Origin: Methylorubrum populi
GTDB taxonomy: Bacteria > Pseudomonadota > Alphaproteobacteria > Rhizobiales > Beijerinckiaceae
DNA length: 64,000 bases
Direction: 5' to 3'
Assembly (NCBI RefSeq): GCF_002355515.1
Contig: NZ_AP014809.1
Coordinates: forward strand, 2,752,501-2,816,500
Positions 44,591 to 64,000 of the stretch are shown one piece after another. The number at the start of each line of letters is the position of its first letter. The stretch's first letter is position 1. The notes under the pieces were generated by a model. It saw only the letters and a program-made list of their open reading frames with translations, ran no database searches and was not told the DNA's origin. Position numbers and translations under genes: made by a program.

Positions 44591-44600
44591 TCCAAGCCCT

Positions 44601-44629: not shown

Positions 44630-44673
44630 AAGGCGAGAGCGCGTGCGCAAGGGCTGGCGGGGTGGCGGCCTGC

Positions 44674-47031: not shown

Positions 47032-47049
47032 CAGGCTCGGGTGAGCCCC

Positions 47050-47493: not shown

Positions 47494-47503
47494 GATGTAC
47501 TCC

Positions 47504-47916: not shown

Positions 47917-47926
47917 GGGGCGCTCC

Positions 47927-48193: not shown

Positions 48194-48234
48194 GGTGCTC
48201 TCCTCACAGCCAGATCGGCGGGCTCTGGCTCTGC

Positions 48235-48521: not shown

Positions 48522-48527
48522 GCATCT

Positions 48528-50599: not shown

Positions 50600-51717
50600 G
50601 ACAGCACCACCGTCACGCGCTGCGCGGCCCGCGTCAGGCCGGTGTAGAGGTGCCGCGCCCGATCCTCCCGAAAAGTCGAGGATTCGTCGATCAGCAGGAC
50701 GTCGTTCCACTGCGAGCCCTGCGCCTTGTGAACGGTGAGCGCGTAGCCGTAGGTGAACTCGTCCGCGCCCTTCCGCAGCGGATAGGGCACGTCCTCCTCG
50801 CGGCCCGTGAAGAAGGCCTCGGGGACCCGCACGTCCGCCGTGCGCCCCCTGATGTCGATCGAATCCAGGCCGAGCGCGACCTTGCCGTCCTCCCGCCCCT
50901 TCACCGCGGAGACGGTCCAGAGCCCGCCGTTCAGCAGGCCCTTGTCCTTGTTGTTCTTGAGGCAGACGAGGCGGTCCTCGACCTGGGGGCCGGACGGGTC
51001 CCGACCGAGCAGGCGCCGCACCTTGGCGTTCACCGTGCGGCGCGTGGCGTTGCGGCCGACGAGGACCTGGTCGGCGCCCATGACGACGCGCTGGCCGAGC
51101 GCGCTGACGTCGATAACGCGGCTGTCGCCGTAGGCCCCGCGCTGCAGGCGGCGCCCCTCGCGCACCTCCATCGACATGCGGATGATCGGGTTGTCCGCCG
51201 CCTGCCGGTGGATCTCGGTCAGCATGAAGTCGGGCTCGACCCGGGTGAAAAAGCCCTCGCCCCGCACCGGCGGCAGCTGCGCGGGGTCGCCGAGCACGAG
51301 CACCTTCGTGCCGAACGAGAGCAGGTCCTCGCCCAGGCGGTCGCCCACCATGGAGCACTCGTCGACGACGACGAGATCGGCCGACGCCACCTCGGAGAGC
51401 GGGTTGAGCCCGTAGCGCATGGTGACGCGCAGCACCTCGCCGGTGACCGGGTCGAGATCCTCTTCCTCGAACGCCTTGTAGATCAGCGAGTGGATGGTCT
51501 GGGCGCCGACGCAGCCCTTGCCGGCGAGCACCAGCGCGGCCTTGCCGGTGAAGGCGGCGAACAGCGCCATCTTGGAGACGCTGGCGGCGGCCTCCTTCGC
51601 GATCGTCGTCTTGCCCGTGCCGGCGTAGCCGCCGAGGTAGAACACCTGATCGTCGGATTCGCGATACCACGCGCCGATCCGGCGTAGGGCCTCGTCCTGC
51701 TGCGGGGACCAGCTCAT
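50596..51717 (-). CDS. RecD-like SF1 DNA helicase
   Basis: The 373-residue protein has the SF1B helicase motifs in order: motif I YLGGYAGTGKTTIA (residues 27-40), AAFTGKAALVLAGKG (Ia), ADLVVVDECSMVG (II), VLGDPAQLPPV (III), LTEIHRQA (IV) and the C-terminal FTYGYALTVHKAQGSQW (V) and YTGLTRAAQRVTVV (VI). It resembles phage Dda/RecD2-type helicases that act 5' to 3' at forks. It starts at ATG 51717 overlapping the previous stop. Confidence 0.92.
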   Translation of the reverse strand: MSWSPQQDEALRRIGAWYRESDDQVFYLGGYAGTGKTTIAKEAAASVSKMALFAAFTGKAALVLAGKGCVGAQTIHSLIYKAFEEEDLDPVTGEVLRVTMRYGLNPLSEVASADLVVVDECSMVGDRLGEDLLSFGTKVLVLGDPAQLPPVRGEGFFTRVEPDFMLTEIHRQAADNPIIRMSMEVREGRRLQRGAYGDSRVIDVSALGQRVVMGADQVLVGRNATRRTVNAKVRRLLGRDPSGPQVEDRLVCLKNNKDKGLLNGGLWTVSAVKGREDGKVALGLDSIDIRGRTADVRVPEAFFTGREEDVPYPLRKGADEFTYGYALTVHKAQGSQWNDVLLIDESSTFREDRARHLYTGLTRAAQRVTVVLS

Positions 51718-52013
51718 CGGCCGCCCCCGAGCGCCCTGCGGCGCCGCTCGGCCTGCCGAGTCTCGTGCAGCATCTTCTGCATCGAGCCGGTGGCGAGTGC
51801 GTCGAGGATGGTGTCGTCGAAGCCGGCGAGCAGGAGCGCCACGTCGCTCGCGCGGCGCAGGCGGGCGGCCTCGGCGCGCACGGCCTGAGCGCAACCATTC
51901 GGCATGGCGGCGAGCGCGTCGGCCCGGCCCTCGGCCTTCGTTGCGTCGGCGAGCAAGGCGAGCGCGTCGTCGGTGAGCGCGTCGCGGCGGAGGAGTTCGT
52001 GCGGCTCGTTCAT
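51714..52013 (-). CDS. Small helical replication-module protein, unknown function
   Basis: The 99-residue product is helical, Ala/Arg/Leu-rich (LLRRDALTDDALALLADATKAE, RLRRASDVALLLAGFDD). Its stop overlaps the helicase start. It may be a helicase loader-like accessory protein, which is only a guess from position. Confidence 0.55.
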   Translation of the reverse strand: MNEPHELLRRDALTDDALALLADATKAEGRADALAAMPNGCAQAVRAEAARLRRASDVALLLAGFDDTILDALATGSMQKMLHETRQAERRRRALGGGR

Positions 52014-52018
52014 GGCGC

Positions 52019-52696
52019 CTACTCCGCAGCCATGAGCAGAGGGGCAGGCGGCGGGGCCACGCCGAAGCGGCGGCGGTCGTCCGGCCGCGTCAGGGCTTGG
52101 CGGCACCCCGGTGGAATCCAGAATGGCGCGAGCGGCGACGCGCCCTCGACCCAAACGAACCACGCGTAGGAGGTGGCGGTCGACGCATCCGGGTCCCATC
52201 GACCCTTCGTCATCGGCACGCGCTCGACGAAGGGGGCGAACAGCGTCGGCGGATGGTCGCGGAAGAGTTCGCCGTAGCGCTCGACGCCCTCGATCCAGGC
52301 GGTGCGCACAAGCGCCGCGACGGCGCAGCCCGTCAGGTCCAGCGCCCGGCGGACGAACGGCAGGGCGACCTTGAACGGCGGGTTGAACCCGATCAGGTTC
52401 GGGCGCGGCGTCACTGCCGTGCCGGGATCAAGGAAATCGGCGACGATGTAGCCACGCCCGTAATCGAAGACGTCGCTCGCGCTCACGATCGCGATGTCCT
52501 CGGCAAAGACCTCGGCCATATGCCCTTCGCCGCAGGCCGGATCCCAGGCAGAGGCGATGTGGTAGCCGTTGAGCGCCCGCGGCAGGACGTGCCGCAGCAG
52601 CGCGCGCGTTGCCCAAGGCGGGGTCGGGAAGAAATCGAGGCTGTCGGGCGGCTCGCGGCGCGAGGCCATGACGGCGCTGTGTCCGGCTGGGATCAT
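52019..52696 (-). CDS. DNA methyltransferase-like protein (NPPF motif)
   Basis: The 225-residue protein contains DFFPTPPWATRALLRHVLP, motif I AWDPACGEGHMAEVF (residues 50-64) and motif IV IGFNPPFKVALPF (residues 102-114). This is the arrangement of N6-adenine or N4-cytosine DNA methyltransferases, though a target-recognition domain is not obvious. It may mark phage DNA against host restriction. ATG 52696 overlaps the previous stop; ATG 52669 is an alternative. Confidence 0.75.
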   Translation of the reverse strand: MIPAGHSAVMASRREPPDSLDFFPTPPWATRALLRHVLPRALNGYHIASAWDPACGEGHMAEVFAEDIAIVSASDVFDYGRGYIVADFLDPGTAVTPRPNLIGFNPPFKVALPFVRRALDLTGCAVAALVRTAWIEGVERYGELFRDHPPTLFAPFVERVPMTKGRWDPDASTATSYAWFVWVEGASPLAPFWIPPGCRQALTRPDDRRRFGVAPPPAPLLMAAE

Positions 52697-52947
52697 GCCG
52701 CACGCCTCCGCGGCTCGACGGAGCCGAACAGGTCGCCGTCCCGCCGCATCGGCGCGCCGGCTTGGATCGCGGCGAGCGCGAGCGCCTCGGGCACCGGCGC
52801 AGGGGAGGGGCGGCGCGGGTCCGGCGAGGAGGGGTCCGCCTCGAGGCGGTAGACGCCCTCGCTCAGCACCAGCGAGCATCCGGCCGCCAGCCAGAAGGCG
52901 AGGCGGTCCCGGTCGGCGCCCATCATCTTGCAGGCGAAGCGGAACAT
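52693..52947 (-). CDS. Small protein between resolvase and methyltransferase genes, unknown function
   Basis: The 84-residue product starts MFRFACKMMGADRDRLAFWL with one modest hydrophobic stretch (LAFWLAAGCSLVLSEGV) and a proline-rich charged tail. Both ends overlap neighbouring genes, so it is well embedded in the operon. No family is recognised. Confidence 0.55.
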   Translation of the reverse strand: MFRFACKMMGADRDRLAFWLAAGCSLVLSEGVYRLEADPSSPDPRRPSPAPVPEALALAAIQAGAPMRRDGDLFGSVEPRRRAA

Positions 52948-53519
52948 CAGCGGAGGACCTCCGCGGCGTAGCGGGCGAGCAGAGCCGCGTCGGCGCGGCC
53001 GTGGTCTTTCTTTCGGGCGAATCGCTCGGCACACGCCGGGAACAGCCGGATCGCGAGAGCGCGACCAGCTTCCTTGCCCTCGTCCCCGCCCGACAGCCTG
53101 AAGTGCTTCTTCCAGTCCTTCGGCAGAGCGAGGTGCAGCGGAGCACCGGACAGCGCCAGCGTCGTCCGCCCAGCCTCGAAGGCCCGTCCGAAGTTGAAGG
53201 CGCTCTGCGCTCCCATGCTGCGACGCTGTCCGCCCTTTCCCGGAATGGAGGGCATGGCGTTGACGTGCTCGATGATCGCGAGCGTCGGGCCCATCCGCTG
53301 GATCAGACGGTTCAACCCGTGCGAATCGACCTCACCGTTGACGACAGGCATGTCCTCGACGGCAATGCGGTCTGGTGCGCTGGGGAAGTAAAAGGCGACG
53401 GCGCCGGTCAGCCCGGGATCGATCGCGACGATGCAGGCTGTTTTCGTGTCAGGAAGATCAATCACCGCCTCGGAAGGCTGCGCATCATCTTGAAAAAGCG
53501 GTGCGGTTGTGGCTTCCAT
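52947..53519 (-). CDS. RuvC-like Holliday junction resolvase
   Basis: The 190-residue protein has the RNase H-fold active site: Asp34 in CIVAIDPGLTGAVAFY, Glu85 in LAIIEHVNAMP and the C-terminal KKDHGRADAALLARYA with Asp177. The conserved QSAFNFGRAFE helix is present. Such phage enzymes resolve recombination or replication branches before packaging. ATG 53519 with GGAGGA seven nt upstream is preferred over GTG 53549. Confidence 0.87.
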   Translation of the reverse strand: MEATTAPLFQDDAQPSEAVIDLPDTKTACIVAIDPGLTGAVAFYFPSAPDRIAVEDMPVVNGEVDSHGLNRLIQRMGPTLAIIEHVNAMPSIPGKGGQRRSMGAQSAFNFGRAFEAGRTTLALSGAPLHLALPKDWKKHFRLSGGDEGKEAGRALAIRLFPACAERFARKKDHGRADAALLARYAAEVLR

Positions 53520-53590
53520 TGTGTCCTCCAGAGACTTCGCTGTGACCACCGCCCGGCACCCGCTCCCCAGCAGGCCGGGCGGTTCGCGTT

Positions 53591-53911
53591 TCAGGGGTGG
53601 TAGCGACCGGGCGGCAGTCGGCTGCCGTCGTGCGGGCGCATGGGATCGCCGCCGAGGGGCGGACGGCGCGGCACGCGAGGCTCGTCGATCGCAGGCAGAT
53701 CGGCCGCCGGCAGCGGCGTCGAGGGGCCGGCCCGCAGCCGCTCATCGGCCTGGGCGAGGGCAATCAGCACGTAGCGGCGGCCCTGGACGAGGCTCCTCGC
53801 CGTCGGCGAAGCGTCGTCCCGCAGCAGGCCATTCCGGCGCACGATCTCGTCGCGCACCGACGTGATCAGGTCCGCGAGGCCGGCATCGCTCAGATCGGCG
53901 AGGGCGCTCAT
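53591..53911 (-). CDS. Small prophage protein, unknown function
   Basis: The 106-residue product has a helical first half (LADLITSVRDEIVRRNGLL, YVLIALAQADERLRAG) and a proline/arginine-rich tail. It ends 71 nt before the resolvase start. No family is recognised. Confidence 0.55.
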   Translation of the reverse strand: MSALADLSDAGLADLITSVRDEIVRRNGLLRDDASPTARSLVQGRRYVLIALAQADERLRAGPSTPLPAADLPAIDEPRVPRRPPLGGDPMRPHDGSRLPPGRYHP

Positions 53912-53913
53912 CG

Positions 53914-54261
53914 TCAGGCGACCCGCACCGCGTCGTCCTGGCCGCGCGCTGCGGACGCCTGGTCGGCAAGCCGCTCGCGGAGCAGATAGCCCTCGAAGGC
54001 CCAGATCTTCTCGCGGGCGTTCTTCCGCGCGATCTGGCGGCCAATCTCCGGGTCGAAGTTCGCCGGGCTGGCCGCGGCGCTCTCGCCGGTGACGTTGAAG
54101 CCGTTGCGCAGGGTGAGGGCGCAGACGGTCAGCGTCGTGCCGGGGAAGACGTGGTAGGCCTCGCCCACGATGCAGGCGTCGATCAGCGCGGGCGTGAGGC
54201 GCGGGGCGTTGAGGCCCTTCGCCTTCAACTCGGTCTCGAGGTTGATCTCGTCTTGGGACAT
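53914..54261 (-). CDS. Gp49/Sf6 gene 66-family phage protein
   Basis: The 115-residue protein matches the family pattern: LIDACIVGEAYHVFPGTTLT, VCALTLRNGFNVTGESAAA and FDPEIGRQIARKNAREKIW, then a short helix. Members are common early-region phage proteins of unknown role. It lies 2 nt before the next gene. Confidence 0.8.
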   Translation of the reverse strand: MSQDEINLETELKAKGLNAPRLTPALIDACIVGEAYHVFPGTTLTVCALTLRNGFNVTGESAAASPANFDPEIGRQIARKNAREKIWAFEGYLLRERLADQASAARGQDDAVRVA

Positions 54262-54284
54262 GCTGCTCTCCTCTCGCTCAGCGG

Positions 54285-54740
54285 CTACGGCCGCGGCTCC
54301 ATCGCCCCGAACAGGGGCAGGTCGGTCAGTTCGGGGGCAGCCGTCCGCCGCGGACGCCGAGCAGCCGGTCCCACAGGCGCCGCCGCCACGTCCGGACCCG
54401 GCTCCACAGGGGCGCCGTCAGCCGCACGAAGAAGAGCCTCAGCCGCGCGAACAGCAGCGTGATCAGGCCCGGCGACGGTGGCGGTGAGCGAGGCTTCATC
54501 GGCGAGCTTCCTGAGTTGCCGCTCGCGCTCGGCGGCGTGGACGGCTTCGAGCCGGGACAGGACGTGGGAGGCGATTTCCTTGGGCGGCCGGTATTTCAGC
54601 GCCCAAAGCTTGGAGAAGGGGACGCGCGCCCGAGTAGCGACCCGGCGCATTGCGTTGCCGGCATCGCCCCAACCTGTCGCTTCCCAGCGGATCAAGTCGT
54701 CGGCCCAGGTCTGGGCCCGTGAAACGTCAGCGCTAGACAT
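54285..54740 (-). CDS. Prophage protein with a possible N-terminal HTH, unknown function
   Basis: The 151-residue protein starts SSADVSRAQTWADDLIRWEA, with a helical region (AMRRVATRARVPFSKLWALK) that looks like a DNA-binding helix pair, then a charged coiled coil (LEAVHAAERERQLRKLADEA) and a basic linker before LPLFGAMEPRP. It heads the resolvase/methyltransferase run. A transcriptional or priming role is possible. Confidence 0.55.
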   Translation of the reverse strand: MSSADVSRAQTWADDLIRWEATGWGDAGNAMRRVATRARVPFSKLWALKYRPPKEIASHVLSRLEAVHAAERERQLRKLADEASLTATVAGPDHAAVRAAEALLRAADGAPVEPGPDVAAAPVGPAARRPRRTAAPELTDLPLFGAMEPRP

Positions 54741-55286
54741 TTGCGCCACCCGCAAAAGCTTTTTGCACACCCTCAAATCCCTCTGTGGTTTCTTCGGACC
54801 ACTGAGAGAGGGCGGGCAGATGAGGGAGGGAGCGGAACGCACGAGGCACAGGAGCGCGACGGCCGACAGCTTGGCGGCGGAGGCAGACGCGCGGGTAGGA
54901 GAGGCGGCCGACGGCTCGGGAGCCGGAAGCCGCCACGGGAGGAGACGCGACGATCGTGCGGCCGCTTGGGACCGGCGCACGACCGTCGCGCTCGCCATCG
55001 GGAGCGCAGCGACGCGCTCGACCGGGGCGATGGGAATTCGAAAAAGCCGGAGCCCGAAGGCCCCGGCAGTCGAGGCGACGCCCACGATGGGCCACGGACG
55101 CGCCGCGGGAACGGCGCGAATGGGGGACGGGTCCGCCGACGTCCGAAACAGTGACGACGGACCCGACCGGCCGGTTCATTCCGGCGCGGTTCGAAAGGGG
55201 AGCGCGGCGAATGCTTGGGGGCTGAAGCGCACCCGCCGCGCACGGGAGGCCGAAGCCGCCCGATCTGGAAAGGGGGAGGGCGGCGC
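54741..55286. other. Stretch without a convincing gene
   Basis: Several long frames are open on both strands here because of very high GC, but their products are Arg/Ser/Gly-rich with no plausible fold. A minus-strand terminator-like hairpin lies at 55040-55067 in the middle of them. A minus-strand frame starting at 55290 with ATGA overlap is the least bad candidate; I do not call it. Confidence 0.5.
55040..55067 (-). terminator. Terminator-like hairpin, minus strand
   Basis: On the minus strand GCCGG-x-GCC pairs with GGC-x-CCGGC around a 4-nt loop, followed by TTTTT. It would end transcription from the small membrane gene at 55287-55436. Confidence 0.6.
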
Positions 55287-55436
55287 TCATGGGACGATCC
55301 CCCAAGCGAGCGCGCACAGCCCGGAGGCTGCGAACTCCAGCAGCGAGAACGCGAGCGAGACCGTGGAGCCGGTGACAGCCGCGCTCACAAGGCTAACGAG
55401 GCCGGTCGCCGCGAAGATGAGGGCGAGCGCGATCAT
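55287..55436 (-). CDS. 49-residue two-span membrane protein
   Basis: The product is almost entirely two hydrophobic helices (IALALIFAATGLVSLVSAAV, AFSLLEFAASGLCALAWG). It is divergent from the plus-strand gene at 55550. Such small membrane proteins in phage regulatory regions can act in exclusion or lysis; no family is known. Confidence 0.6.
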   Translation of the reverse strand: MIALALIFAATGLVSLVSAAVTGSTVSLAFSLLEFAASGLCALAWGIVP

Positions 55437-55549
55437 GTCAGGCCGCCCTCGCGAGCGAGGGGCAAGCTCGGACGAGGCGCCGAGCCTGACGCTCGACAGC
55501 CCCGTCCGGCCCGCTACCTTGAGTGTTGCCACACACCAAGGAGCTTGTG

Positions 55550-55795
55550 ATGACGGACAGTATCCGGGATTTGCCGCAGCAGACCCGACTGAACGTAAGA
55601 GGCGTAGCGGCCTCTATTCTTTTGCCGGTCCTCATCAATCGCCTGGACAAGATGCATCCCGGCTTGACCGAAGAACTGGCAAAGGACGCAGAAAGATTCC
55701 TCGAACTCGCGATGTCACAGGCGCCGGAGACACCGCCAGAGATCCAAGCAGAGTTACGGCACGCGGTGCGCTCAATGTTGGCGAAGGACATCTAG
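55550..55795 (+). CDS. Small protein in the switch region, unknown function
   Basis: The 81-residue protein is helical (GVAASILLPVLINRLDKM, LTEELAKDAERFLELAM, PEIQAELRHAVRSML), with an excellent ribosome-binding site (AAGGAG at 55538-55543). It is less GC-rich than its surroundings and its stop overlaps the end of the convergent small gene by 4 nt. It could be expressed in the lysogen. Confidence 0.65.
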   Translation: MTDSIRDLPQQTRLNVRGVAASILLPVLINRLDKMHPGLTEELAKDAERFLELAMSQAPETPPEIQAELRHAVRSMLAKDI

Positions 55796-55959
55796 ACCAT
55801 CCTCGCCGCTATTGCTGTCACAGCACGGATATCGGCAGCGGCCTCTTCGGCAAGCTGCCGATATCTGACAGGCTGGGCGCACTCGTGCGCCGCGATCCGC
55901 GCGTCAATGCGCCGGTCCAGCCAGCGCGAGAGCCAGGAGAAGGGAGCGAGGGCGCGCAT
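55792..55959 (-). CDS. 55-residue protein cotranscribed with the Cro-like gene
   Basis: The start overlaps the Cro-like stop (TGATG). The product is helical and basic at first (FSWLSRWLDRRIDARIAAHE) then YRQLAEEAAADIRAVTAIAA. A perfect 12-nt inverted repeat (55829-55840 with 55855-55866) lies inside the coding region. Function unknown. Confidence 0.6.
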   Translation of the reverse strand: MRALAPFSWLSRWLDRRIDARIAAHECAQPVRYRQLAEEAAADIRAVTAIAARMV

Positions 55960-56207
55960 CAGGCGGCCTCGTCGCTTGCAGCGGCGGCCGCTTGGCGGAC
56001 CGCGCAGTCTTCAGCAGCCGCGATCAGGTCGTTCGCGGTCACTTCGCCGTCAGTTGCTTCTCGGATGCGCCTCTGCTGCGCGAGCCGCGGGATGCGCTGT
56101 CCGTATCGCCACTTCCTCACGGCCCATGCCGAAACACCCGGACCAAGACGTCTGGCGAAAGCCTCGTCGGTCAGATCGTTCGCGCGAAGGTAGGCATCGA
56201 GCTGCAT
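55959..56207 (-). CDS. Cro-like helix-turn-helix regulator
   Basis: The 82-residue protein has a Cro/C1-type HTH at residues 1-60 (LRANDLTDEAFARRLGPGVS, AWAVRKWRYGQRIPRL). It lies back to back with the S24-type repressor across an operator, the classic lytic/lysogenic switch. Its promoter's -10 ends 8 nt before the ATG, so the mRNA may be leaderless. Confidence 0.8.
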   Translation of the reverse strand: MQLDAYLRANDLTDEAFARRLGPGVSAWAVRKWRYGQRIPRLAQQRRIREATDGEVTANDLIAAAEDCAVRQAAAAASDEAA

Positions 56208-56214
56208 GTCCGAA

Positions 56215-56244
56215 GATATATGCCCATGATGGGCACATCGTCAA
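56215..56244 (-). promoter_or_regulatory. Promoter of the Cro-like gene with an operator in its spacer
   Basis: On the minus strand TTGACG (56244-56239), an 18-nt spacer and TATATC (56220-56215) form a near-consensus promoter. The perfect palindrome TGCCCATGATGGGCA (56221-56235) fills the spacer, so a bound repressor would block it. Half sites lie at 56254-56260 and 56290-56296 toward the repressor gene. Confidence 0.8.
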
Positions 56245-56306
56245 ACGCCAATCGTGCCCACCTTGTGCTCTGCTCACAGGCGAAGGCTTTGGGCACAGTC
56301 CGGCCC

Positions 56307-56879
56307 ATGGCGAACAACCTCAAACGGCTGCGCACGGAGCGGGAGCTTTCCCAGACCGAACTCGCGGACCGTATGAACACGACACGAAATCAGATCGCGA
56401 AGCTGGAGAGCGGCGCACGCCGCCTATCGGACGTGTGGATCAGCCGTGCGGCCGTAGCGCTGCGCGTTGACCCTGGGGCACTCGTCGCCGATTCGATGCT
56501 GGTTGACGTGGTCGGCTACGTCGGAGCCGGCTCGATGATCACCTACTACGGCGAGGACGAGGGCTCGCTTGAGACCGTCGACCGTCCGCCGGGCGCGTCC
56601 GACGAAACGGTAGCGGTGAGAGTTAAGGGCGACTCCATGCCCGGCGTCGCTGAGGACCGGTGGATCCTCTATTACGACAAGCGCGTCCGAAGCGTGCCGG
56701 ACGAGTGGGTGAACCAACTCTGTGTGGTCTGGCTGCCGAACGAGCGCGTTTACGTGAAGAAGGTGTACCGGGGCCGCGACCCCGGCACGTTCGATTTGAT
56801 CTCGACCGGACACTACGAGCCCATGCGGGACGAAGAGGTCGAGTGGTCCGCGAAAGTCCAGTGGATCAAGCCCGCCTAG
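56307..56879 (+). CDS. CI-like repressor with HTH and S24-type C-terminal domain
   Basis: The 190-residue protein has an N-terminal HTH (LKRLRTERELSQTELADRMN, TTRNQIAKLESGARRLS) and a C-terminal LexA/S24-like domain (VVGYVGAGSMITYY, VAVRVKGDSMPGVAEDRWIL with the usual GDSM serine, and NQLCVVWLPNERVYVKKVYR with the conserved lysine). GAGS may be the self-cleavage region. It maintains lysogeny and would respond to RecA after DNA damage. ATG 56307 gives the usual start; a long upstream frame is open but not protein-like. Confidence 0.88.
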   Translation: MANNLKRLRTERELSQTELADRMNTTRNQIAKLESGARRLSDVWISRAAVALRVDPGALVADSMLVDVVGYVGAGSMITYYGEDEGSLETVDRPPGASDETVAVRVKGDSMPGVAEDRWILYYDKRVRSVPDEWVNQLCVVWLPNERVYVKKVYRGRDPGTFDLISTGHYEPMRDEEVEWSAKVQWIKPA

Positions 56880-57133
56880 AACGGGATCTCGTCGTCAGGG
56901 TCACACACCACCCCGAACGTGCCGATGAAGCGAAGCGACTCACATTCACCCGTGAGCGTGTTCGTCTCCTGCGTGAAGGCCTGCGCGCCGAGCACACGCC
57001 CTTGCTCGACGAGGCGTTGAGCAAGGCGGGTAGCACCTTCCGGGGAAGAGCATGAGCGGGTCTCGAGTCTGCCGATCCGCCCCTTCTTCGTGCGTACGAA
57101 CGATTGCACCGCGTGAGTCGTGATTTGCCCCAT
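56876..57133 (-). CDS. Small protein with an SSB-like C-terminal tip (DDEIPF)
   Basis: The 85-residue protein (MGQITTHAVQSFVRTKKGRI, ATRLAQRLVEQGRVLGAQAF) ends VVCDPDDEIPF, resembling the acidic tip of bacterial SSB. It shares only the small size and this tail with the protein at 47927-48193. AGGAGA lies before the ATG. It converges with the CI gene (4-nt overlap of stops) and diverges from the rightward operon across the operators. Confidence 0.6.
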   Translation of the reverse strand: MGQITTHAVQSFVRTKKGRIGRLETRSCSSPEGATRLAQRLVEQGRVLGAQAFTQETNTLTGECESLRFIGTFGVVCDPDDEIPF

Positions 57134-57191
57134 TTCGGTCTCCTGTGAGACCTCAAGGATGGAACAGAAAGAGAACAAAGCAAGCGGATAA

Positions 57192-57286
57192 TGCCCATAT
57201 CGTCCTCGCCTGTGGAAAGCGGGGAAACCGCAATGTGCCCATTATGGGCTTGACGAGCGTGCCCATTCAGGGCACGTTGTGCCCAT
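57192..57286. promoter_or_regulatory. Right operator cluster for the CI-like repressor
   Basis: TGCCCAT half sites begin at 57192 and 57280. Near-palindromes TGCCCATTATGGGCT (57236-57250) and TGCCCATTCAGGGCA (57260-57274) match the operator at 56221 except one base each. TTGACG (57250-57255) with CACGTT 17 nt on (57273-57278) is a possible rightward promoter covered by the second site. This would repress the early operon in the lysogen. Confidence 0.75.
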
Positions 57287-57316
57287 CGCCGCTCAACGAG
57301 CCGATGGAGCCGCACG

Positions 57317-57529
57317 GTGCCCCAGCCCTACACCCACATCGTCCAGGACCTCGCCGGCCAGTTCTTCCAGGTCCGTGACGCGGGCTCGGCCGAACTCTCC
57401 CACGTCTTCCACGGCATGGCCGTGAAGCGCGCCGGCGGCGGCTTCGCCCCCAAGAAGGGCGCCCGCGAGATCCTCGTTCGCAAGCTCGGCTGCCGCGTCG
57501 TGGCCGCCCTCGCAGCGAAGGCCGCCTGA
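57317..57529 (+). CDS. First gene of the rightward early operon, unknown function
   Basis: The 70-residue product starts with GTG 31 nt after the operator cluster. It has YTHIVQDLAGQFFQVRDAGS and a basic helical end (KKGAREILVRKLGCRVVAAL). Position makes it the first protein made on induction. No family is recognised. Confidence 0.6.
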   Translation: MPQPYTHIVQDLAGQFFQVRDAGSAELSHVFHGMAVKRAGGGFAPKKGAREILVRKLGCRVVAALAAKAA

Positions 57530-57531
57530 CC

Positions 57532-57627
57532 ATGGCCGCCTTCCTCGCCAACCTCGCGCCGTTCGCCGGCATCCTGATCGTCGGCGCCCTGTTCGCTGTC
57601 GGTCATCACCGGTGGGGGCGCGCGTGA
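57532..57627 (+). CDS. 31-residue single-span membrane protein
   Basis: The product is a single hydrophobic helix (FLANLAPFAGILIVGALFAVG) with a short basic tail. It starts 2 nt after the previous stop and overlaps the next GTG (GTGA). Function unknown. Confidence 0.5.
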   Translation: MAAFLANLAPFAGILIVGALFAVGHHRWGRA

Positions 57628-57872
57628 ACGCCCTCTCGATGCCCGAGACCATGACCGAGGCGATGGTCGATGTCTGGCAGCGGGCTTTCGCCAAGCAACT
57701 CAACCGGCGCCGCAAGGGGACTCGCGCCGACTGCCATCGGCAGCACCGGTATCCCGAGACCTGCGAGGCTTATGCTTGGCGGGCGCTGATCGCCCACCTG
57801 CAATCCCCGCACATTGCGCCGGCCGATATCGTCTTGCAGACGAAGCCGCTCACGCAGCGGGGTGGCCAGTGA
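57624..57872 (+). CDS. Small early protein, unknown function
   Basis: The 82-residue product reads MTEAMVDVWQRAFAKQLNRR then RADCHRQHRYPETCEAYAWR and ALIAHLQSPHIA, a helical, Cys/His-containing protein. Starts and stops overlap the neighbours. Confidence 0.55.
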   Translation: MNALSMPETMTEAMVDVWQRAFAKQLNRRRKGTRADCHRQHRYPETCEAYAWRALIAHLQSPHIAPADIVLQTKPLTQRGGQ

Positions 57873-58246
57873 ACGCCCCGCTTCGCTCCGACGCGGTGAG
57901 CCTGCCGCTCTCCCCCGTGGTCGCGACCTTCCGCGTCCGCCAGCGCACCGCCGGCACGTGGGACGTCGTCCGCGAGATCTCCGGCCCCGACGTGCTCAGC
58001 GTCGAGGAATCGCCCCTCCGCATCGGCGACCTGCACCGCGATCCGGCGGAGGCGAATGCTGCGGCCGCCGCTGCTGCCGAGGCGTGGAAGCTGACCGGTC
58101 GCGAGGCCCTGGTGCGCCCGATCTCGACCGCCACCACCGGCCGCCGCGCTGGCCAGACCTACGGCCTGTTCCCGCTGCGGAGCGAGCCCGACGCTGAGCA
58201 CCGCCTCGGCTCCCAGGACCTCGGCATCATCGCGAGGGCATCATGA
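57869..58246 (+). CDS. Early protein, unknown function
   Basis: The 125-residue product has a beta-like first part (PVVATFRVRQRTAGTWDVV), an alanine-rich helix and a basic glycine-containing segment (TATTGRRAGQTYGLFPLR). GTG start overlaps the previous stop. No family is recognised. Confidence 0.55.
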   Translation: MNAPLRSDAVSLPLSPVVATFRVRQRTAGTWDVVREISGPDVLSVEESPLRIGDLHRDPAEANAAAAAAAEAWKLTGREALVRPISTATTGRRAGQTYGLFPLRSEPDAEHRLGSQDLGIIARAS

Positions 58247-58554
58247 GCGCCGCTCCCACCGTCGCCGACACCGGCACGCCCCTCTCCGTCATCATACAGG
58301 CCGAGCGCGACTCCGCTCGCACGTTCGGCCTCGCCGCCGGCCTCTTGATCGGCGGCGCCTCGCAGGCCGAGGGCGCGCTGCGCACGCTCGCCTCCGGCAT
58401 CGGCCTGATCGAGCAGGCCGCCCGCGACGGCACCGACCCCGCGACGGTCGCCGCCTACGCGGCCCGCCTCGAGCGTGAGGCCGCCGCCCTGCTCGGCCGC
58501 CTCGTCGCGGTTCGGGTCAACGCCACCACCGCCGACTCCCGCGAGGCCGCCTGA
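58243..58554 (+). CDS. Helical early protein, unknown function
   Basis: The 103-residue product is alanine-rich and helical (SVIIQAERDSARTFGLAAGL, ATVAAYAARLEREAAALLGR). It starts ATGA-overlapped. A small membrane-active or scaffolding role is possible; nothing shows it. Confidence 0.55.
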   Translation: MSAAPTVADTGTPLSVIIQAERDSARTFGLAAGLLIGGASQAEGALRTLASGIGLIEQAARDGTDPATVAAYAARLEREAAALLGRLVAVRVNATTADSREAA

Positions 58555-58646
58555 TGTTCGGCCTCGTCGTCGATGCCCTCGCGCTGATCGGCGCGTGGTC
58601 GGTCGCCCGCCGACTCTACCGGCTCCGCCGCTTCTTCCGCCGCTGA
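58554..58646 (+). CDS. 30-residue basic membrane peptide
   Basis: The sequence is a hydrophobic helix (LVVDALALIGAWSVA) followed by a very basic end (RRLYRLRRFFRR). The start overlaps the previous stop by one base. Function unknown; the amphipathic, basic design resembles membrane-perturbing phage peptides. Confidence 0.45.
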   Translation: MFGLVVDALALIGAWSVARRLYRLRRFFRR

Positions 58647-58697
58647 TCCCGACCGCGGGGCCGGGACACGCCCCTGCACCATCCACGAGCACGACCT

Positions 58698-58961
58698 ATG
58701 AAGCGCATCCTCGCCTTGGCCGCCCTCCTGCCCCTCGCGGCCTGCGGTCCCTACCAACTCGCCGACACCGAGCGGCAGGTCGCCGAACTCGGCGCCCGCG
58801 AGATCGCCGACCGCTCGCAGGCCGACTTCGTCGGATGCTCCGGGCAGGACTCGGACAAGGACGGCTACGTCACCTGCACGATCAAGGACCGGGCCTCGCC
58901 GCGCGCCGAGCACGAGCTCGCCTGCGCGTACAAGGCCCGCGGCTGCAAGCGCAAAGCCTGA
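58698..58961 (+). CDS. Small putative lipoprotein
   Basis: The 87-residue product has a lipoprotein signal (MKRILALAALLPLAACG, lipobox LAAC), so Cys16 would be lipidated. The mature part contains a Cys pair and a charged helix (ERQVAELGAREIADRSQAD). A phage-encoded lipoprotein may act in superinfection exclusion by the outer membrane, but this is speculative. Confidence 0.65.
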   Translation: MKRILALAALLPLAACGPYQLADTERQVAELGAREIADRSQADFVGCSGQDSDKDGYVTCTIKDRASPRAEHELACAYKARGCKRKA

Positions 58962-59018
58962 CCCGTCCGCCGGGTCGGTCTCCGGCCCGGCGCCCGCCCT
59001 CCTGTCGCGGCGCCATCC

Positions 59019-59159
59019 ATGAGCACGCTCGCCAACCTCCCCTGGATCCTGACGCTCGCCGGCACCGCCGGCCTCACCGCCTACGCGGCCTTCCGTGCCT
59101 ACGACGACGGGTGCGCCCAGCAGGCGGCCGACGACGGGGAGGGCCGCGCGGATGGCTGA
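59019..59159 (+). CDS. 46-residue single-span membrane protein
   Basis: The product has one hydrophobic helix (LPWILTLAGTAGLTAYAAF) and an acidic C-terminus. It overlaps the next start by 8 nt. Function unknown. Confidence 0.5.
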   Translation: MSTLANLPWILTLAGTAGLTAYAAFRAYDDGCAQQAADDGEGRADG

Positions 59160-59352
59160 GGACACGCCCCTCGCCCTGTTCGTCGAGCGCACCGATGCCG
59201 GCCCGCGCCTCGTCGCATCCCGCCCGGACGGCGAGCGCGTCGCCGAGTTCGATCTCAACCGAGCCGGCGCCCGCCTCATCGCCCGCGAGCTGCTCGCCGC
59301 TTCCGGCGACGGCACCGAGCGCACCTTCACCCCGGAGGCCGCCCGTGGCTGA
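59152..59352 (+). CDS. Small beta-rich early protein, unknown function
   Basis: The 66-residue product (LALFVERTDAGPRLVASRPD, AEFDLNRAGARLIARELLAA) is compact and soluble. It overlaps the next GTG by 8 nt. No family is recognised. Confidence 0.55.
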   Translation: MAEDTPLALFVERTDAGPRLVASRPDGERVAEFDLNRAGARLIARELLAASGDGTERTFTPEAARG

Positions 59353-59692
59353 CCGCACCCCCGACCAGCAGCAGCTCGCCGACCTGTTCCTTGCCCTCGG
59401 CGTCCGGCTACCGCTGCGCGTCGGCGGCCCCCTCGGCCGCGAGATCCGCGACGCCGACGGGCACACGTTCTTCATCGTCCTGCCGACCGGCAGCCAGTCC
59501 GACGACCGCGCCCGCGCGCTCGCCATCGTGAGCACTGTGAACGCCGCCACCGGCACGCCCGACCACGAGGCCGGGCCGCTCCCGGTGCTGCGGCCGCTTA
59601 CCGCCGATGTGATCCGGGCGGCCGAGCAACCCTTCGACCCCGATTACCTCGTCGCCCTGGCGCAATCCGCCCGGGCCGCCGCCGCGGAGTGA
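59345..59692 (+). CDS. Early protein, unknown function
   Basis: The 115-residue product starts with GTG (ADRTPDQQQLADLFLALGVR) and has FFIVLPTGSQSDDRARALAI and VIRAAEQPFDPDYLVALAQS. It directly precedes the recombination genes and overlaps the alternative start of the nuclease gene, so it is part of that unit. Confidence 0.55.
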   Translation: MADRTPDQQQLADLFLALGVRLPLRVGGPLGREIRDADGHTFFIVLPTGSQSDDRARALAIVSTVNAATGTPDHEAGPLPVLRPLTADVIRAAEQPFDPDYLVALAQSARAAAAE

Positions 59693-59697
59693 GCGCC

Positions 59698-60687
59698 ATG
59701 CGGATCATCGACCACAACGAGGGGCGCGTGCCCGGCCCCGGCCTCTACCGGATGCCGGCGGCGCTCTATCACGCGGACCCGGCACCGGGCCCGAGCCTGT
59801 CCTCGTCGATCGCCCGCGCGATCATCAGCGAGACGCCCCGGCACGCCCACGCCAAGCATCCGCGCCTGACGCCGCAGACCGAGGACAGCAAGAACCGGAA
59901 GATGGATCTCGGGTCCGTCGCCCACGAGATCCTGACGGGCGAAGGGCGCGGCATCCACGTCATCACCGCGACGAACAAGGCCGGCGAGGCTGTCGAGACC
60001 TACGCGACGAAGGCCGCACAGGAGGAGCGCGACGAGGCGCTCGCCGCCGGGCTGACGCCGGTCCTGTCCTGCGACCTCCTCAAGGCCGAGCGCATGGTCG
60101 CGGCGGTGCGCTCCCGGCTCGCCGAGACGCCGGAGACCAAGGGCGCATTCGAGCAGGGCGCGGGCGAGACCTCGCTCGTCTGGCAGGATCGGCTCGGGCT
60201 GTGGGGCAGGGCGCAACTCGACTGGCGTGGTCCCGAACCGCACCTGATCTGGGATCTCAAGACGACTTCGGCCGGCCTCTCGGACCGCGCCATCGCGACG
60301 AAGATCGCCGAGGGCCTGGACATCCAGGAGCACTGGTATCGCCGCGGCCTGACGCGGCTGGTGCCCGACCTGATGGGCCGGGTGCGCATGCGCTTCGTCT
60401 TCGTCGAGACGGTCGAGCCGTTCGAGTGCCGCGTGATCGAGCTCTCCGGCGAGCAGCAGTGGCTCGGCGAGCGTAAGGCCATCACGGCGGCCGTCCTGTT
60501 CCGCGAGTGCCTGCGCACCGGGCGGTGGCCCGGCTACGCGGCCGGCATCAGCCGCGTCGAGGCGCCGGCATGGCCCGCCGCGCAGTGGGAAGCCCGCGAG
60601 GCCGCTGACCCCCTCTTCCGCGAGTTCGGCACGGCCCTGGTGTTGGCCCACTCGACCGCCGCCCCCGATCAGGAGATCGCCGCGTGA
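59698..60687 (+). CDS. RecE-like PD-(D/E)XK exonuclease
   Basis: The 329-residue protein has the RecB/RecE-type nuclease pattern: PGLYRMPAALYHADPAPGPS, GSVAHEILTGEG (motif H), then QLDWRGPEPHLIWDLKTTSA with the D and DLK catalytic residues. IQEHWYRRGL and a C-terminal FECRVIELSGEQQW follow. It would resect DNA 5' to 3' for single-strand annealing. ATG 59698 with GGAGTGA upstream is used; GTG 59689 is an alternative. The next gene is the likely annealing partner. Confidence 0.8.
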   Translation: MRIIDHNEGRVPGPGLYRMPAALYHADPAPGPSLSSSIARAIISETPRHAHAKHPRLTPQTEDSKNRKMDLGSVAHEILTGEGRGIHVITATNKAGEAVETYATKAAQEERDEALAAGLTPVLSCDLLKAERMVAAVRSRLAETPETKGAFEQGAGETSLVWQDRLGLWGRAQLDWRGPEPHLIWDLKTTSAGLSDRAIATKIAEGLDIQEHWYRRGLTRLVPDLMGRVRMRFVFVETVEPFECRVIELSGEQQWLGERKAITAAVLFRECLRTGRWPGYAAGISRVEAPAWPAAQWEAREAADPLFREFGTALVLAHSTAAPDQEIAA

Positions 60688-61739
60688 CCAAGCCTCCCGT
60701 TCGCACCTTCGAGGACAAGGAAGCGGTTCGCCAGCAGGTGCCGCTCCTCGTCGGTCTCTTCGGCCCGTCCGGTTCGGGCAAGACCTTCAGCGCCCTCCGC
60801 CTCGCGCAGGGCATCCAGCAGGTGGCCGGCGGCGACATCTTTGTCGTCGATACCGAGTCGAAGCGCGCGCTGCACTACGCCGACCGCTTCCGCTTCCGCC
60901 ACGTCGAGTTCGGCGCGCCCTTCGGCTCGCTCGATTACCTCGCCGCGCTCCAATACTGCGTCGGCAAGGGTGCCCGCACGATCATCGTGGATTCGATGAG
61001 CCACGAGCACGAGGGCGTCGGCGGCTACCTGATGACCCAGGAGGCCGAGCTCGACCGGATCGCGGGCGACAACGAGAGCAAGCGTCAGAAGGCGACCTAT
61101 TCGGCCTGGATCGTGCCGGCCAAGCAGCGGCGCCAGTTCATCAACGGCGTGCTCGGGCTCAACGCCAACTTCATCTTCTGCTTCCGCGCCAAGGAAAAGC
61201 TCAAGATCAAGGGCGGCGGCTCGCCGACCGAGCTCGGCTACATGCCGATCGCGGGCGAGGAATTCCTGTTCGAGATGACGGTGAACGCCCTGCTGCTGCC
61301 GGGCGCCCGCGGCGTGCCGACTTGGAAGACGGACTATCCCGGCGAGCGGCGCATGCTGAAGCTGCCGGAGCAGTTCCGCGAGCTGTTGCTGAAGGAGCAG
61401 CCCCTCGACGAGGAGATCGGCCGCAACCTCGCGCAGTGGGCGCAGGGCGGCACGGTCGAGGTGTCGCGACCGACCAGCAAGCCGGACGAGGGCAGGGCGC
61501 CGTCGCCCAACGGCCCCCGCGACCGCAAGACCGAACTCCTCACTGCCGCCCGTGAGAAAGCGCGCGCCGGCAGCGACACGTTCGGGCTCTGGCGCGATCG
61601 GCTGAGCGAGGGGCAGCGCGCCGCCGTCGACGAGATCGAGGACGAGTTGCGCGACCTGATGGCGGATGCGGACGATCGCCCGCCAGACGACAGCTTCCCA
61701 GCCGACGACGAACTCGCCGCGCGCGGGGAGGCCGCCTGA
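60684..61739 (+). CDS. Sak4-like RecA-superfamily ATPase (single-strand annealing/recombinase)
   Basis: The 351-residue protein has Walker A LFGPSGSGKTFSALRLA (residues 25-41), a Walker B region GARTIIVDSMSHEHEGVGG and a central NANFIFCFRAKEKLKIKG. This is the arrangement of the phage P-loop recombinases grouped as Sak4. The tail is acidic and ends DDELAARGEAA. The GTG start overlaps the nuclease stop. Together with the nuclease it makes a two-gene recombination system like Red. Confidence 0.8.
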   Translation: MTKPPVRTFEDKEAVRQQVPLLVGLFGPSGSGKTFSALRLAQGIQQVAGGDIFVVDTESKRALHYADRFRFRHVEFGAPFGSLDYLAALQYCVGKGARTIIVDSMSHEHEGVGGYLMTQEAELDRIAGDNESKRQKATYSAWIVPAKQRRQFINGVLGLNANFIFCFRAKEKLKIKGGGSPTELGYMPIAGEEFLFEMTVNALLLPGARGVPTWKTDYPGERRMLKLPEQFRELLLKEQPLDEEIGRNLAQWAQGGTVEVSRPTSKPDEGRAPSPNGPRDRKTELLTAAREKARAGSDTFGLWRDRLSEGQRAAVDEIEDELRDLMADADDRPPDDSFPADDELAARGEAA

Positions 61740-61740
61740 C

Positions 61741-61968
61741 ATGGCCGAGTCCTTCTCCGCTCGCGGCATCAGCCTCGCAGGCTGCCCCGAACCCCGCTGC
61801 ACCTGCGGCAGCCTGATCGTCCGCCTCTACGACGAGGCCGGCAACATCGTCGGTGGTTTGGTGCTCCCCCGCGAGCATGCCGCCCTGTTCGCCGCGCAGG
61901 CCGCAGCGCTCACCGGTCCCGACGCACGGACCGACCTTTCCGTCATCCGCTGCCAGGGAGTCGCCTGA
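61741..61968 (+). CDS. Small cysteine-containing protein, unknown function
   Basis: The 75-residue product has CPEPRCTCGSLIVRLYDEAG, a possible metal-binding Cys cluster, then a helical end. It starts 1 nt after the ATPase stop. Confidence 0.55.
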   Translation: MAESFSARGISLAGCPEPRCTCGSLIVRLYDEAGNIVGGLVLPREHAALFAAQAAALTGPDARTDLSVIRCQGVA

Positions 61969-61969
61969 G

Positions 61970-62410
61970 ATGAACGCGCACGCTCACCACCTGACGCGCT
62001 CTCAGGTCATCGCCCTGCTCGAAGAGCGCGACACCCTTCGCGAGACCATTCGCCAGCTCGAAGACATCCTCGTGCCCTTCATGGTGCTGCCGAAGGACTG
62101 GCGGCTTACGACCTCCGAACAGCGGATGATGCGGGCACTGCGCGCATCCGCACCCGGCATCCTCCACAAAGAGCGCGCGATGATCGCGATGTACGGCACG
62201 TGGGAGGACGCGCCGGAGCAGAAGATCGTCGACGTCTTCATCTGCAAGATCCGGCGCAAGCTCATGGAGGCGCAGACCCGCATCCACATCGAGACGATCT
62301 GGGGGCGCGGCTGGAGGCTGACGCCCGAGAGCATCCAGATCTTCGACGGGATCGTCGCGGCTGATGCGGCCGACTATCCCGCGTGGCCCTCTGCCGAGAG
62401 GGCGGCATGA
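61970..62410 (+). CDS. Stand-alone CtrA-type winged-helix DNA-binding protein
   Basis: The 146-residue protein has a short N-terminal helical pair (RSQVIALLEERDTLRETIRQ, residues 11-30) and an OmpR/PhoB-type winged helix at residues 45-120: LTTSEQRMMRALRAS, MYGTWEDAPEQKIVDVFICK, IRRKLMEA and IETIWGRGWRLTPES. The KIVDVFICKIRRKL and ETIWGRGWRL stretches are the hallmark of CtrA, the alphaproteobacterial cell-cycle regulator. No receiver domain is present, so it cannot be switched by phosphorylation. It probably binds CtrA-type sites on host or phage DNA; this is inference. Confidence 0.85.
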   Translation: MNAHAHHLTRSQVIALLEERDTLRETIRQLEDILVPFMVLPKDWRLTTSEQRMMRALRASAPGILHKERAMIAMYGTWEDAPEQKIVDVFICKIRRKLMEAQTRIHIETIWGRGWRLTPESIQIFDGIVAADAADYPAWPSAERAA

Positions 62411-62859
62411 GCGCCCTCGGCATCTACTGCGCCGATTGCGGCACCGAGTGCGAGCGGATCACCGGTCGCGAGGCCGGCACCCGCGAGCCGGACCTGCTCG
62501 ACGCCCAGGTCTGGGCCTGCACGGTCTGCCCCGAGGCGTGGGCTCCGTGCGCGCCCGACGGCACCGCAATCGGGCTCCCAGCCGGCGAGAAGACTCGCGA
62601 GGCCCGCGCCATGCTGCGCGAGCGCCAGGTCGAGCGGTTGATCGGCGAGGCCCTGCGCCACTGCCCGAACGGTCGGACGATCGCCGAGGAGCGCGTCGCG
62701 TCCTTCCTTGCCCATGCGCTCAGCCTGCCGCCGGCAGAGGCCGCGATCGACCGTCTCAACCTCGAATGGTGCCGCCGCGCGTGGCGGGCGCTCCAGGGCG
62801 CCTCCTACGCCGACGCCGTGCGCCACGCCCAGACCTATCGCCCGAGGAAAGCAGCCTGA
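62407..62859 (+). CDS. Zinc-binding phage protein
   Basis: The 150-residue protein starts with a cysteine cluster (IYCADCGTECERITG then VWACTVCPEAWAPC) typical of small zinc-finger phage proteins and ends in a helical domain (AIDRLNLEWCRRAWRAL). It overlaps the CtrA-like stop by 4 nt. Nucleic-acid binding is plausible. Confidence 0.7.
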   Translation: MSALGIYCADCGTECERITGREAGTREPDLLDAQVWACTVCPEAWAPCAPDGTAIGLPAGEKTREARAMLRERQVERLIGEALRHCPNGRTIAEERVASFLAHALSLPPAEAAIDRLNLEWCRRAWRALQGASYADAVRHAQTYRPRKAA

Positions 62860-62899
62860 TGCGCCCCCTGATCATCGACAGCTTCGCGGGCGGCGATCC
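62859..62899 (+). pseudogene. 5' remnant of a phage DNA cytosine methyltransferase
   Basis: The ATG overlaps the previous stop (TGATG) and the first residues, MRPLIIDSFAGG, are the usual N-terminus and SAM-binding motif I of phage C5 methyltransferases (LIIDSFAGGGGAS). After residue 12 the match stops at the 3' end of a minus-strand gene. The open frame continues for 450 nt but is merely the antisense of that gene. Confidence 0.65.
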
Positions 62900-63184
62900 T
62901 CAGCGCGCTTCCCGCAACACCCGCCGGGCTTCCTGCTCAAACACCGTGTGCCGAACCGAGGCCGGACCATCGGTCGGCGCGTCTCTGCCTTCCTCACGCA
63001 CGCAGCGGAGGAACCGCTGCCGGCTGAACCCAAACGGGCGAAGGCTGGTGGTCAGCGCGCGCAGCACGAGGCGCATGGCCTGCTCGCGCTCTTCGGCGAC
63101 TGCAAGGCGCGCCTTCAGCGTCTCCAGCTCACTCGGGGGTTCCGGCACCAGCATCGGCAGCCCTGATCGCTTGTCACCAGCCAC
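62900..63184 (-). CDS. Minus-strand coiled-coil protein inserted in the early operon
   Basis: The 94-residue product (GTG start with AAGGAGA 7-8 nt upstream) has a clear coiled coil (ELETLKARLAVAEEREQAMR) and a basic C-terminal part (RPFGFSRQRFLRCVREEGRD). It is the only leftward gene in the rightward operon and its 3' end abuts the methyltransferase remnant, suggesting it replaced most of that gene. About 150 nt upstream (63185-63334) is free for its promoter. Function unknown. Confidence 0.65.
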   Translation of the reverse strand: MAGDKRSGLPMLVPEPPSELETLKARLAVAEEREQAMRLVLRALTTSLRPFGFSRQRFLRCVREEGRDAPTDGPASVRHTVFEQEARRVLREAR

Positions 63185-63334
63185 CCTGATTCTCCTTGGT
63201 CTCGGCGACAGGCTTTTGGCTCGCGGCTCGTCTGTTGTCGATCGGACCGCGGGCACAATCGGACGTTATCCGCGCCGCCCAGCCGTCGCCGCCCGCCGCC
63301 TCCCCTCGACCTCTCTCGCCGCGGAGTGACGCCC

Positions 63335-63760
63335 ATGGTCGCCTACAGCTTCAAGAAGCGGTTCGGCCCGCCGATCCTCGCCGGCACCAAGGCGCAGACG
63401 ATCCGCGCCGACCGGAAGCGGCACGCTCGGCAGGGCGAGCAGCTGCAGCTCTACACCGGGATGCGGACGAAGCACTGCCGGCTCCTCGGCCGGCCGACCT
63501 GCCTCTCTGTCATGCCCGTGCGCCTGTGCTTCTCCGAGCGCAGCGCGACCGAGCTATTCGAGGTGGGCGGCGAGCTGCTCAGCCCGGCGCGGATGGACAC
63601 CTTCGCGCGCGAGGACGGCTTCGAGAGCGTCGAAGACATGGCCCGCTTTTGGTGGGCCGAGCACCCGCCGGAGGAGGGCGATCGCATCGCCTTCGAGGGC
63701 GTGCTGATCCGCTGGCAGCCTCTCGCCGACGCCCCCGTCCTTCCCCTTGCAGCCGAGTGA
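63335..63760 (+). CDS. ASCH-domain-like phage protein
   Basis: The 141-residue protein begins MVAYSFKKRFGPPILAGTKA followed by QTIRADRKRHARQGEQLQLY, the pattern of phage ASCH/PUA-like proteins, which are thought to bind RNA. The end is aromatic and acidic (MARFWWAEHPPEEGDRIAFE). It resumes the rightward operon after the inserted gene. Confidence 0.7.
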   Translation: MVAYSFKKRFGPPILAGTKAQTIRADRKRHARQGEQLQLYTGMRTKHCRLLGRPTCLSVMPVRLCFSERSATELFEVGGELLSPARMDTFAREDGFESVEDMARFWWAEHPPEEGDRIAFEGVLIRWQPLADAPVLPLAAE

Positions 63761-63765
63761 CCGCC

Positions 63766-64000
63766 ATGCCCGAGGTATCCCGCAAGCTCGACATCAACCT
63801 GCACGACACGTCCGTTGGCATCTGGCAGGACGACCCGAACGACCCGACCTTTCGATCCGAGATCTTCGAGCCGCTGACCGCCTGGATGCGGCGGCGAGGC
63901 TGGCGCGTCACGGCCGATCCGGAGGTGCTGAAGCGCCACCGCTGCATCAGCAAGGGCTACCGTGTCGCCGAGCGCGGAGACCTGCGCGCGAGGGGCGAAT
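63766..64000 (+). CDS. Early protein, unknown function (3' end outside window)
   Basis: Translation starts at ATG 63766 (or GTG 63757) and stays open to the edge: KLDINLHDTSVGIWQDDPND, RSEIFEPLTAWMRRRGWRVT, KRHRCISKGYRVAERGDLRA. At least 78 residues are visible. No family is recognised; the gene continues the early operon. Confidence 0.6.
   Translation, partial: MPEVSRKLDINLHDTSVGIWQDDPNDPTFRSEIFEPLTAWMRRRGWRVTADPEVLKRHRCISKGYRVAERGDLRARGE

Follow-up and report, generated by a model that had tools for sequence, protein, structure and literature searches.

CtrA is the cell-cycle master response regulator of the alphaproteobacteria and is switched by a phosphorelay. PMC9437464 describes host CtrA as binding and regulating the promoters of several alphaproteobacterial phages, a form of control called 'lytic deferment'; a possible GcrA homologue is encoded by five of six phiCbK-type phages (PMC3556154), and host ctrA is needed for infection by phage Jorvik (PMC10589892). 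One phage copy named CtrA is already known, gp37 of RDJL Phi 1. A phage-encoded CtrA domain without a receiver was not found in the titles, abstract starts and passages that our literature search covered, among which few subscription journals were represented, and a text search of PMC8224337 returned no mention of CtrA. Here we describe a phage-borne protein of this kind, encoded in a 64,000-nucleotide stretch of DNA (the window); the coordinates of its gene and of the surrounding features are given in Table 1.

The 146-aa protein matched Trans_reg_C (PF00486) over residues 44-117 (Pfam, E 5e-10; score 39.7 bits, cut-off 26.2), and its AlphaFold2 model, built on a 25-sequence alignment (mean pLDDT 83, pTM 0.67), contained a winged helix at residues 48-117 between the N-terminal helix and a C-terminal helix at residues 119-133. 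This score exceeds the curated cut-off, and together with the fold it identifies an OmpR/PhoB-type winged-helix domain. When the model was compared with PDB folds, with one match at E <= 0.001, the best matches were the OmpR/PhoB-type DNA-binding domains of ArlR, SaeR, CssR, RstA and PhoB. A beta-sheet usually sits ahead of the winged helix in domains of this type; the model has no strands N-terminal to it. A Pfam scan found no receiver in the protein, whose 43 residues ahead of the winged-helix match hold one helix, and it is not a member of the full CtrA response regulator family, which has a receiver with a phosphorylated aspartate. The best phage family was phrog_31800, 'transcriptional regulator' (PHROGs, E 5e-16).

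An earlier note on this DNA had given the position of the reading frame and quoted residues 75-93 (YGTWEDAPEQKIVDVFICK) and 107-117 (IETIWGRGWRL), all of which proved accurate. It had also taken the first 45 residues for a short helical pair and not a receiver: no receiver was detected there by Pfam, and the pair is a single helix in the AlphaFold2 model. This helix has a heptad pattern that 89 of 5000 shuffles matched, and by the same kind of shuffle test the pattern reached p<=0.05 in 36 of 68 receiver-less rows. The pattern is compatible with the proposal, also made in that note, that N-terminal dimerisation takes the place of phosphorylation.

Table 1. Coordinates of the CtrA-type gene, its parts and neighbouring prophage features
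Feature	Position	Strand	Remarks
Prophage, part in window	12307..64000	.	whole prophage ends at 69008 in extended coordinates (L022:5008), the outer edge of the integrase gene
CI-type repressor (HTH + S24 peptidase domain)	56309..56879	+	start taken as internal ATG at 56309, an interpretation; longer open frame 55992-56879
TGCCCAT-type near-palindrome, two copies, candidate CI operators	57235..57273	.	ahead of + strand gene run
RecE/exonuclease VIII-like nuclease (DUF3799, phrog_412)	59689..60687	+	Pfam, PHROGs
AAA_24 ATPase (phrog_1366)	60684..61739	+	Pfam, PHROGs; upstream in same run
75-aa ORF immediately upstream of CtrA-type gene	61741..61968	+	no family match (Pfam, PHROGs); swapped together with it in L302
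CtrA-type winged-helix protein without receiver	61970..62410	+	146 aa; ATG at 61970, stop at 62408-62410
Heptad-patterned N-terminal helix (residues 10-34), a candidate coiled coil where CtrA has its receiver	61997..62071	+	AlphaFold2 model
Recognition helix, residues 85-100 (KIVDVFICKIRRKLME)	62222..62269	+	alignment to host CtrA
Wing, residues 107-117 (IETIWGRGWRL)	62288..62320	+	8/11 identical to host CtrA
phrog_1934 gene, downstream	62407..62859	+	start overlaps stop of CtrA-type gene

The host genome has 19 places matching PF00486, the query included, and among the 18 others the best BLAST match of the query was L009 (45% over 73 aa, E 6e-16), followed at E 7e-5 by the second-best paralogue. 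L009 is taken as the host CtrA on the strength of its own sequence and because 4qpj, a CtrA receiver, is its closest relative in the PDB (E 1.3e-67). NCBIfam likewise ranked its CtrA model first for the query (E 4.8e-14; next RprY, 7.6e-6), at a score of 52.6 bits, which is far under the model's full-length cut-off of 350. In a tree of 107 rows and 83 columns, built by a quick method with every fourth genome locus, with identical rows dropped and rows L133, L144 and L160 left out, a single branch (SH-aLRT 98) set the query, CtrA and every viral row apart from the remaining OmpR-type proteins of the host, with one exception (16 of 17); the host protein L012, which has a long branch, was placed among the viral rows. 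Within this group the query fell inside a 15-row clade of phage proteins (support 97).

Identity to host CtrA was concentrated in two parts, at 11/17 in the recognition helix (residues 84-100) and 8/11 in the wing, compared with 13/40 over residues 44-84. The query residues K85, I86, D88, V89, F90, C92, K93 and W111 are invariant in 19/19 CtrA rows, and, by analogy with PhoB, these positions presumably touch DNA. In the other host paralogues (n=17) the most frequent residues seldom or never include K85, I86, F90, C92, K93 and W111, whereas D88 (10/17) and V89 (9/17) are common. With CtrA as its nearest relative and a CtrA recognition helix, the protein has, as judged from its sequence, a CtrA-type DNA-binding domain, as the earlier note had maintained; a closer OmpR-type regulator with a different recognition helix, which that note had named as the finding that would speak against it, did not emerge from BLAST, NCBIfam, the tree or the alignment. 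Two of these positions are less constant among phage relatives of the query. F90, invariant in the 19 CtrA rows, varies within the query's own clade (W5 F4 Y3 L1 H1, n=14), and W111 is replaced by Y in 4/14; this variation suggests a drift of specificity.

The gene lies in a prophage of a Methylobacterium-type host that is predicted to extend over about 12307-69008, bounds deduced from the contig coordinates of IMG/VR stretch L001 and not from an end-to-end alignment; L001 matches the stretch 56970-67407 (extended coordinates) at 100% identity. The integrase gene ends at the prophage edge at 69008, and the genes for terminase, portal and head protein are on the - strand. The presence of these genes and of a CI repressor in the same prophage agrees with the phage origin that had been proposed for the gene. 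Genes of the prophage, like those around the host CtrA boxes, were called by base composition. Copies of a TGCCCAT near-palindrome begin at 57235 and 57259, with a third at 56220-56234, and these are candidate CI operators. After 57317 there follows a + strand run with tight spacing, comprising the RecE-like nuclease, the AAA_24 ATPase, the 75-aa ORF, the CtrA-type gene and the phrog_1934 gene, which we infer to be an early operon silenced by CI. The Ala-Ala C-terminus of the protein was considered as a CtrA-like degradation tag and rejected, since 7/70 called ORFs end in AA and, by eye, several neighbours in the run do so too.

Elsewhere in the prophage, the stretch 48235-48520 holds eleven GGTGGGGC/GCCCCACC motifs (5 and 6) and adjoins a primase-like gene on the - strand (48528-49976). 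The 9-base repeats CTGCCCCAC occur there three times at 48298-48326 and as three inverted copies at 48431-48459, and CTGCCCCACC has 7 occurrences against 0.23 expected; the stretch is a candidate phage replication origin. A 452-aa ORF at 15598-16956, which borders a prophage region of low GC (54.5% in 16001-18000), had no PHROG match.

Comparison with the sister phage L302 revealed a replacement at the CtrA-type gene. L302 is 88.5% identical to the window over 59137-61746 and 88.8% over 62388-62895, and the intervening 61747-62387 is replaced by other DNA with three ORFs. One of 119 aa had no match, although by eye it resembles XRE proteins; one of 160 aa encodes a helix-turn-helix protein (HTH_38, E 4e-10; phrog_323, E 6e-12); and one of 115 aa had no Pfam match. 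The whole L302 record contains no PF00486 match. Because L302 holds other HTH genes between flanks of about 88% identity, the CtrA-type gene is an exchangeable accessory cassette in what resembles a regulator slot. Of 30 phage records that contain relatives of two genes from its neighbourhood, 2 have a PF00486 protein, a count that is no frequency, as the records were hand-picked and the contigs L231, L240 and L254, which carry the gene, were left out. We also noted two methylase-like genes: a long ORF after the shared gene in L302 (8268-10889) that resembles a C-5 cytosine methylase by eye, and an ORF in L108 (6332-8968) with a Pfam DNA_methylase match.

Relatives of the protein were found by tblastn in 30 of 50,697 phage records, every one at <60% identity, and 268 confirmed IMG/VR stretches encode relatives, 80 of which were kept for analysis. 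The IMG/VR loci were retrieved with search patterns covering a portion of the recognition helix or of the wing, with F90 left free, so the conservation of these parts among viral loci is partly built in. By a split made by eye from translations, 69 of the 80 loci were without a receiver and 11 had a receiver-like or long N-terminus. In L149 (..ILRCGADDVQPAPI..), L156, L169, L173, L177 and L178 the N-terminus looked by eye like a degenerate receiver; L173, the one of these to which the Pfam receiver model was applied, gave no receiver match.

A phrog_1033 (ParB-like)/Pfam DUF6551 gene, represented by L121 and forming one BLAST cluster, is upstream in 28 of the 69 receiver-less loci. Its end is <=90 bases from the start of the match in 23/28, and in 5/28 a second winged-helix gene lies between. 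This arrangement was rejected as general to the query's clade, being missing from L104-L119 and from the query itself. The five ParB_N places of the query's own genome are all outside the prophage, which is a weak comparison because the ParB_N model PF02195 differs from DUF6551, the model to which the phage gene matched. L148 and L159, from a different upstream cluster, have a weak winged-helix domain of their own. Two winged-helix cluster genes were present in 11/80 loci, one often with a different recognition helix; tandem family genes whose first copy has a changed recognition helix were seen in L130, L132, L133, L135, L139, L144 and L146, as in L130, where ..VESHVSKLKRK.. in the first copy stands against ..VDVFVCKMRRK.. 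in the second.

We then compared the CtrA boxes of phage and host. The window contains neither an exact TTAA-N7-TTAA nor one with a single mismatch (0.53 expected), and the genome-wide list of exact matches places none in the rest of the prophage. TTAA itself occurs 14 times in the whole prophage against 20.2 expected. Eighty phage records that carry the family, a set in which the prophage of the window (G001) was counted along with fragments and near-copies, yielded 5 sites, each in a different record, and the reversed pattern gave 10. With no site in the prophage and no excess in these records, CtrA sites as phage promoters, one of the uses that the earlier note had envisaged, were rejected. 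The signature of lytic deferment, a concentration of CtrA sites in phage promoter regions, is likewise absent by the TTAA-N7-TTAA pattern, which is not the site search of PMC9437464.

The scan for this pattern, which the earlier note had suggested, gave a different picture in the host genome, where TTAA pairs number 31 at N7 compared with 7 at N6 and 3 at N8 (reversed-pattern controls 15, 12 and 15). Twenty-seven stretches hold the 28 main-contig sites of the 31, and the central site is inside a called gene in 2/27. Ten neighbouring genes were scanned, picked by eye mostly for a motility or signalling look, a choice that gives no measure of the share of flagellar genes. They included four flagellar proteins, namely FliL, a rod/hook protein, another rod protein and FliE (937 bases from its site, which is itself inside a called gene), as well as a chemotaxis receptor domain, a receiver protein (response regulator) and a curlin-repeat protein; a flagellin-like protein (just under) and an Hpt protein were under the cut-off, and one neighbour had no match. 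The host has CtrA-type boxes, some of them at motility genes, and the prophage has none.

In a first look, TTAA pairs seemed scarce in phage loci compared with loci around host ctrA genes. TTAA avoidance was nevertheless rejected as a distinguishing feature of gene-bearing phages, as TTAA/AATT was 0.296 in the 80 loci with it and 0.317 in 152 controls without it, most of which were checked for the domain within the locus only. These controls remained of 160 after eight were dropped, five holding such a domain and three (L231, L240 and L254) lying on contigs with the gene elsewhere. A first run by GC band showed no consistent direction (0.35/0.44, 0.29/0.24 and 0.26/0.27 with and without the gene), and the 28 controls that are domain-free over the whole record gave 0.345. 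Since the ratio is nearly equal with and without the gene, the lack of CtrA boxes is not special to gene-bearing phages.

The best explanation, to which we assign a probability of roughly 0.48, is that the protein is an accessory, phosphorylation-independent CtrA-type regulator that acts mainly on host CtrA sites and competes with host CtrA there. The early operon would be off under CI in the lysogen and on at induction or infection; the protein would dimerise through its N-terminal helix and so bind DNA without the phosphorylation of CtrA; and it would compete with host CtrA for the chromosomal CtrA boxes, some of which precede flagellar and chemotaxis genes. We infer binding to TTAA-N7-TTAA from the kept recognition helix and wing, and the host boxes are proposed as the target because these elements are kept while the phage has no such sites. 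That the protein is a simple CtrA substitute is doubtful, because its alpha2-alpha3 loop is altered. Host sites are the most likely target, at about even odds, with a diverged phage operator as the alternative.

This alternative, in which the protein is an interchangeable early-operon regulator of the phage's own promoters and recognizes an operator that no longer resembles a CtrA box, is possible and is the main competitor of action on host sites. The varying F90 of the query's clade and the adjoining recombination genes fit it, as do the other HTH genes in the slot of L302, since different regulators could serve one phage role, but the query itself retains the CtrA residues. Direct repeats in the 5777 intergenic bases of the prophage point both ways: those with a 12-base period are slightly raised (6-mers, 10 against 4.1 expected, with 5/100 shuffles as high), but at the 11-base period of CtrA half-sites there is no excess (5-mers, 15 against 14.8 expected). 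A strong excess at a 9-base period is due to the repeats at 48298-48459, and these were rejected as the protein's operator, as they were not found at <=2 mismatches in 15 other clade contigs, one imperfect match aside. A dead competitor that blocks host CtrA, on its boxes or by pairing with it, without being a regulator itself, would also explain a kept DNA-reading surface, a missing receiver and an alpha2-alpha3 loop one residue longer than that of CtrA; by sequence it is inseparable from the competing regulator preferred here, and we consider it unlikely.

Still less credible is a decaying, functionless remnant of a captured host ctrA gene. The missing receiver would suit a remnant, as would the internal stop in two of the seven genomes with a match at E <= 1e-15 (among 59 of the host genus, own genome included). 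Against decay, non-synonymous changes per site were fewer than synonymous ones in 10/10 relative pairs (dN/dS about 0.1-0.4), from which the gene is judged to be maintained, and a remnant is thereby largely refuted. Close relatives, moreover, conserve the N-terminal helix and the C-terminal tail, and many relatives are of similar length and build.

If the competing regulator is extended to its relatives, alphaproteobacterial phages might encode a family of 'unswitched CtrA' proteins that is widespread but undescribed. In these the DNA-reading domain would have been freed of its receiver and fused to a dimerisation helix, and the proteins, made early in infection, would bypass the phosphorelay and seize the CtrA boxes of the host at genes for motility, chemotaxis and perhaps also division and replication. 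We put this wider claim forward as a speculation that is on balance unlikely. The family of relatives is common enough to offer a natural series of recognition-helix variants for studying shifts in CtrA-type specificity.

Among known proteins, host CtrA (L009) shares with the query a winged helix with a KI-DVF-CK recognition helix and a TxWGRG wing, and the query differs from it in having an N-terminal helix where CtrA has its receiver, one more residue in the alpha2-alpha3 loop and the C-terminal helix at residues 119-133. The phage family phrog_31800 is known to us as a profile name only. RDJL Phi 1 gp37 (HM151342), annotated 'transcriptional regulator CtrA', is likewise a phage-borne CtrA-type domain, 46.5% identical over 71 aa, but has a different N-terminus and a longer C-terminus; L168, taken as RDJL Phi 1, grouped with the CtrA rows in the tree. 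The possible GcrA homologue of phiCbK-type phages (PMC3556154) is also a phage copy of a host cell-cycle regulator, but of GcrA and not of CtrA. The likeness to the lytic-deferment phages lies in CtrA-related control in alphaproteobacterial phages; according to PMC9437464, those phages carry CtrA sites and use host CtrA, whereas this prophage encodes a CtrA-type protein and has no TTAA-N7-TTAA. If the preferred explanation is true, it would be the reverse of host CtrA governing phage genes as presented there, with the phage writing on the CtrA sites of its host.
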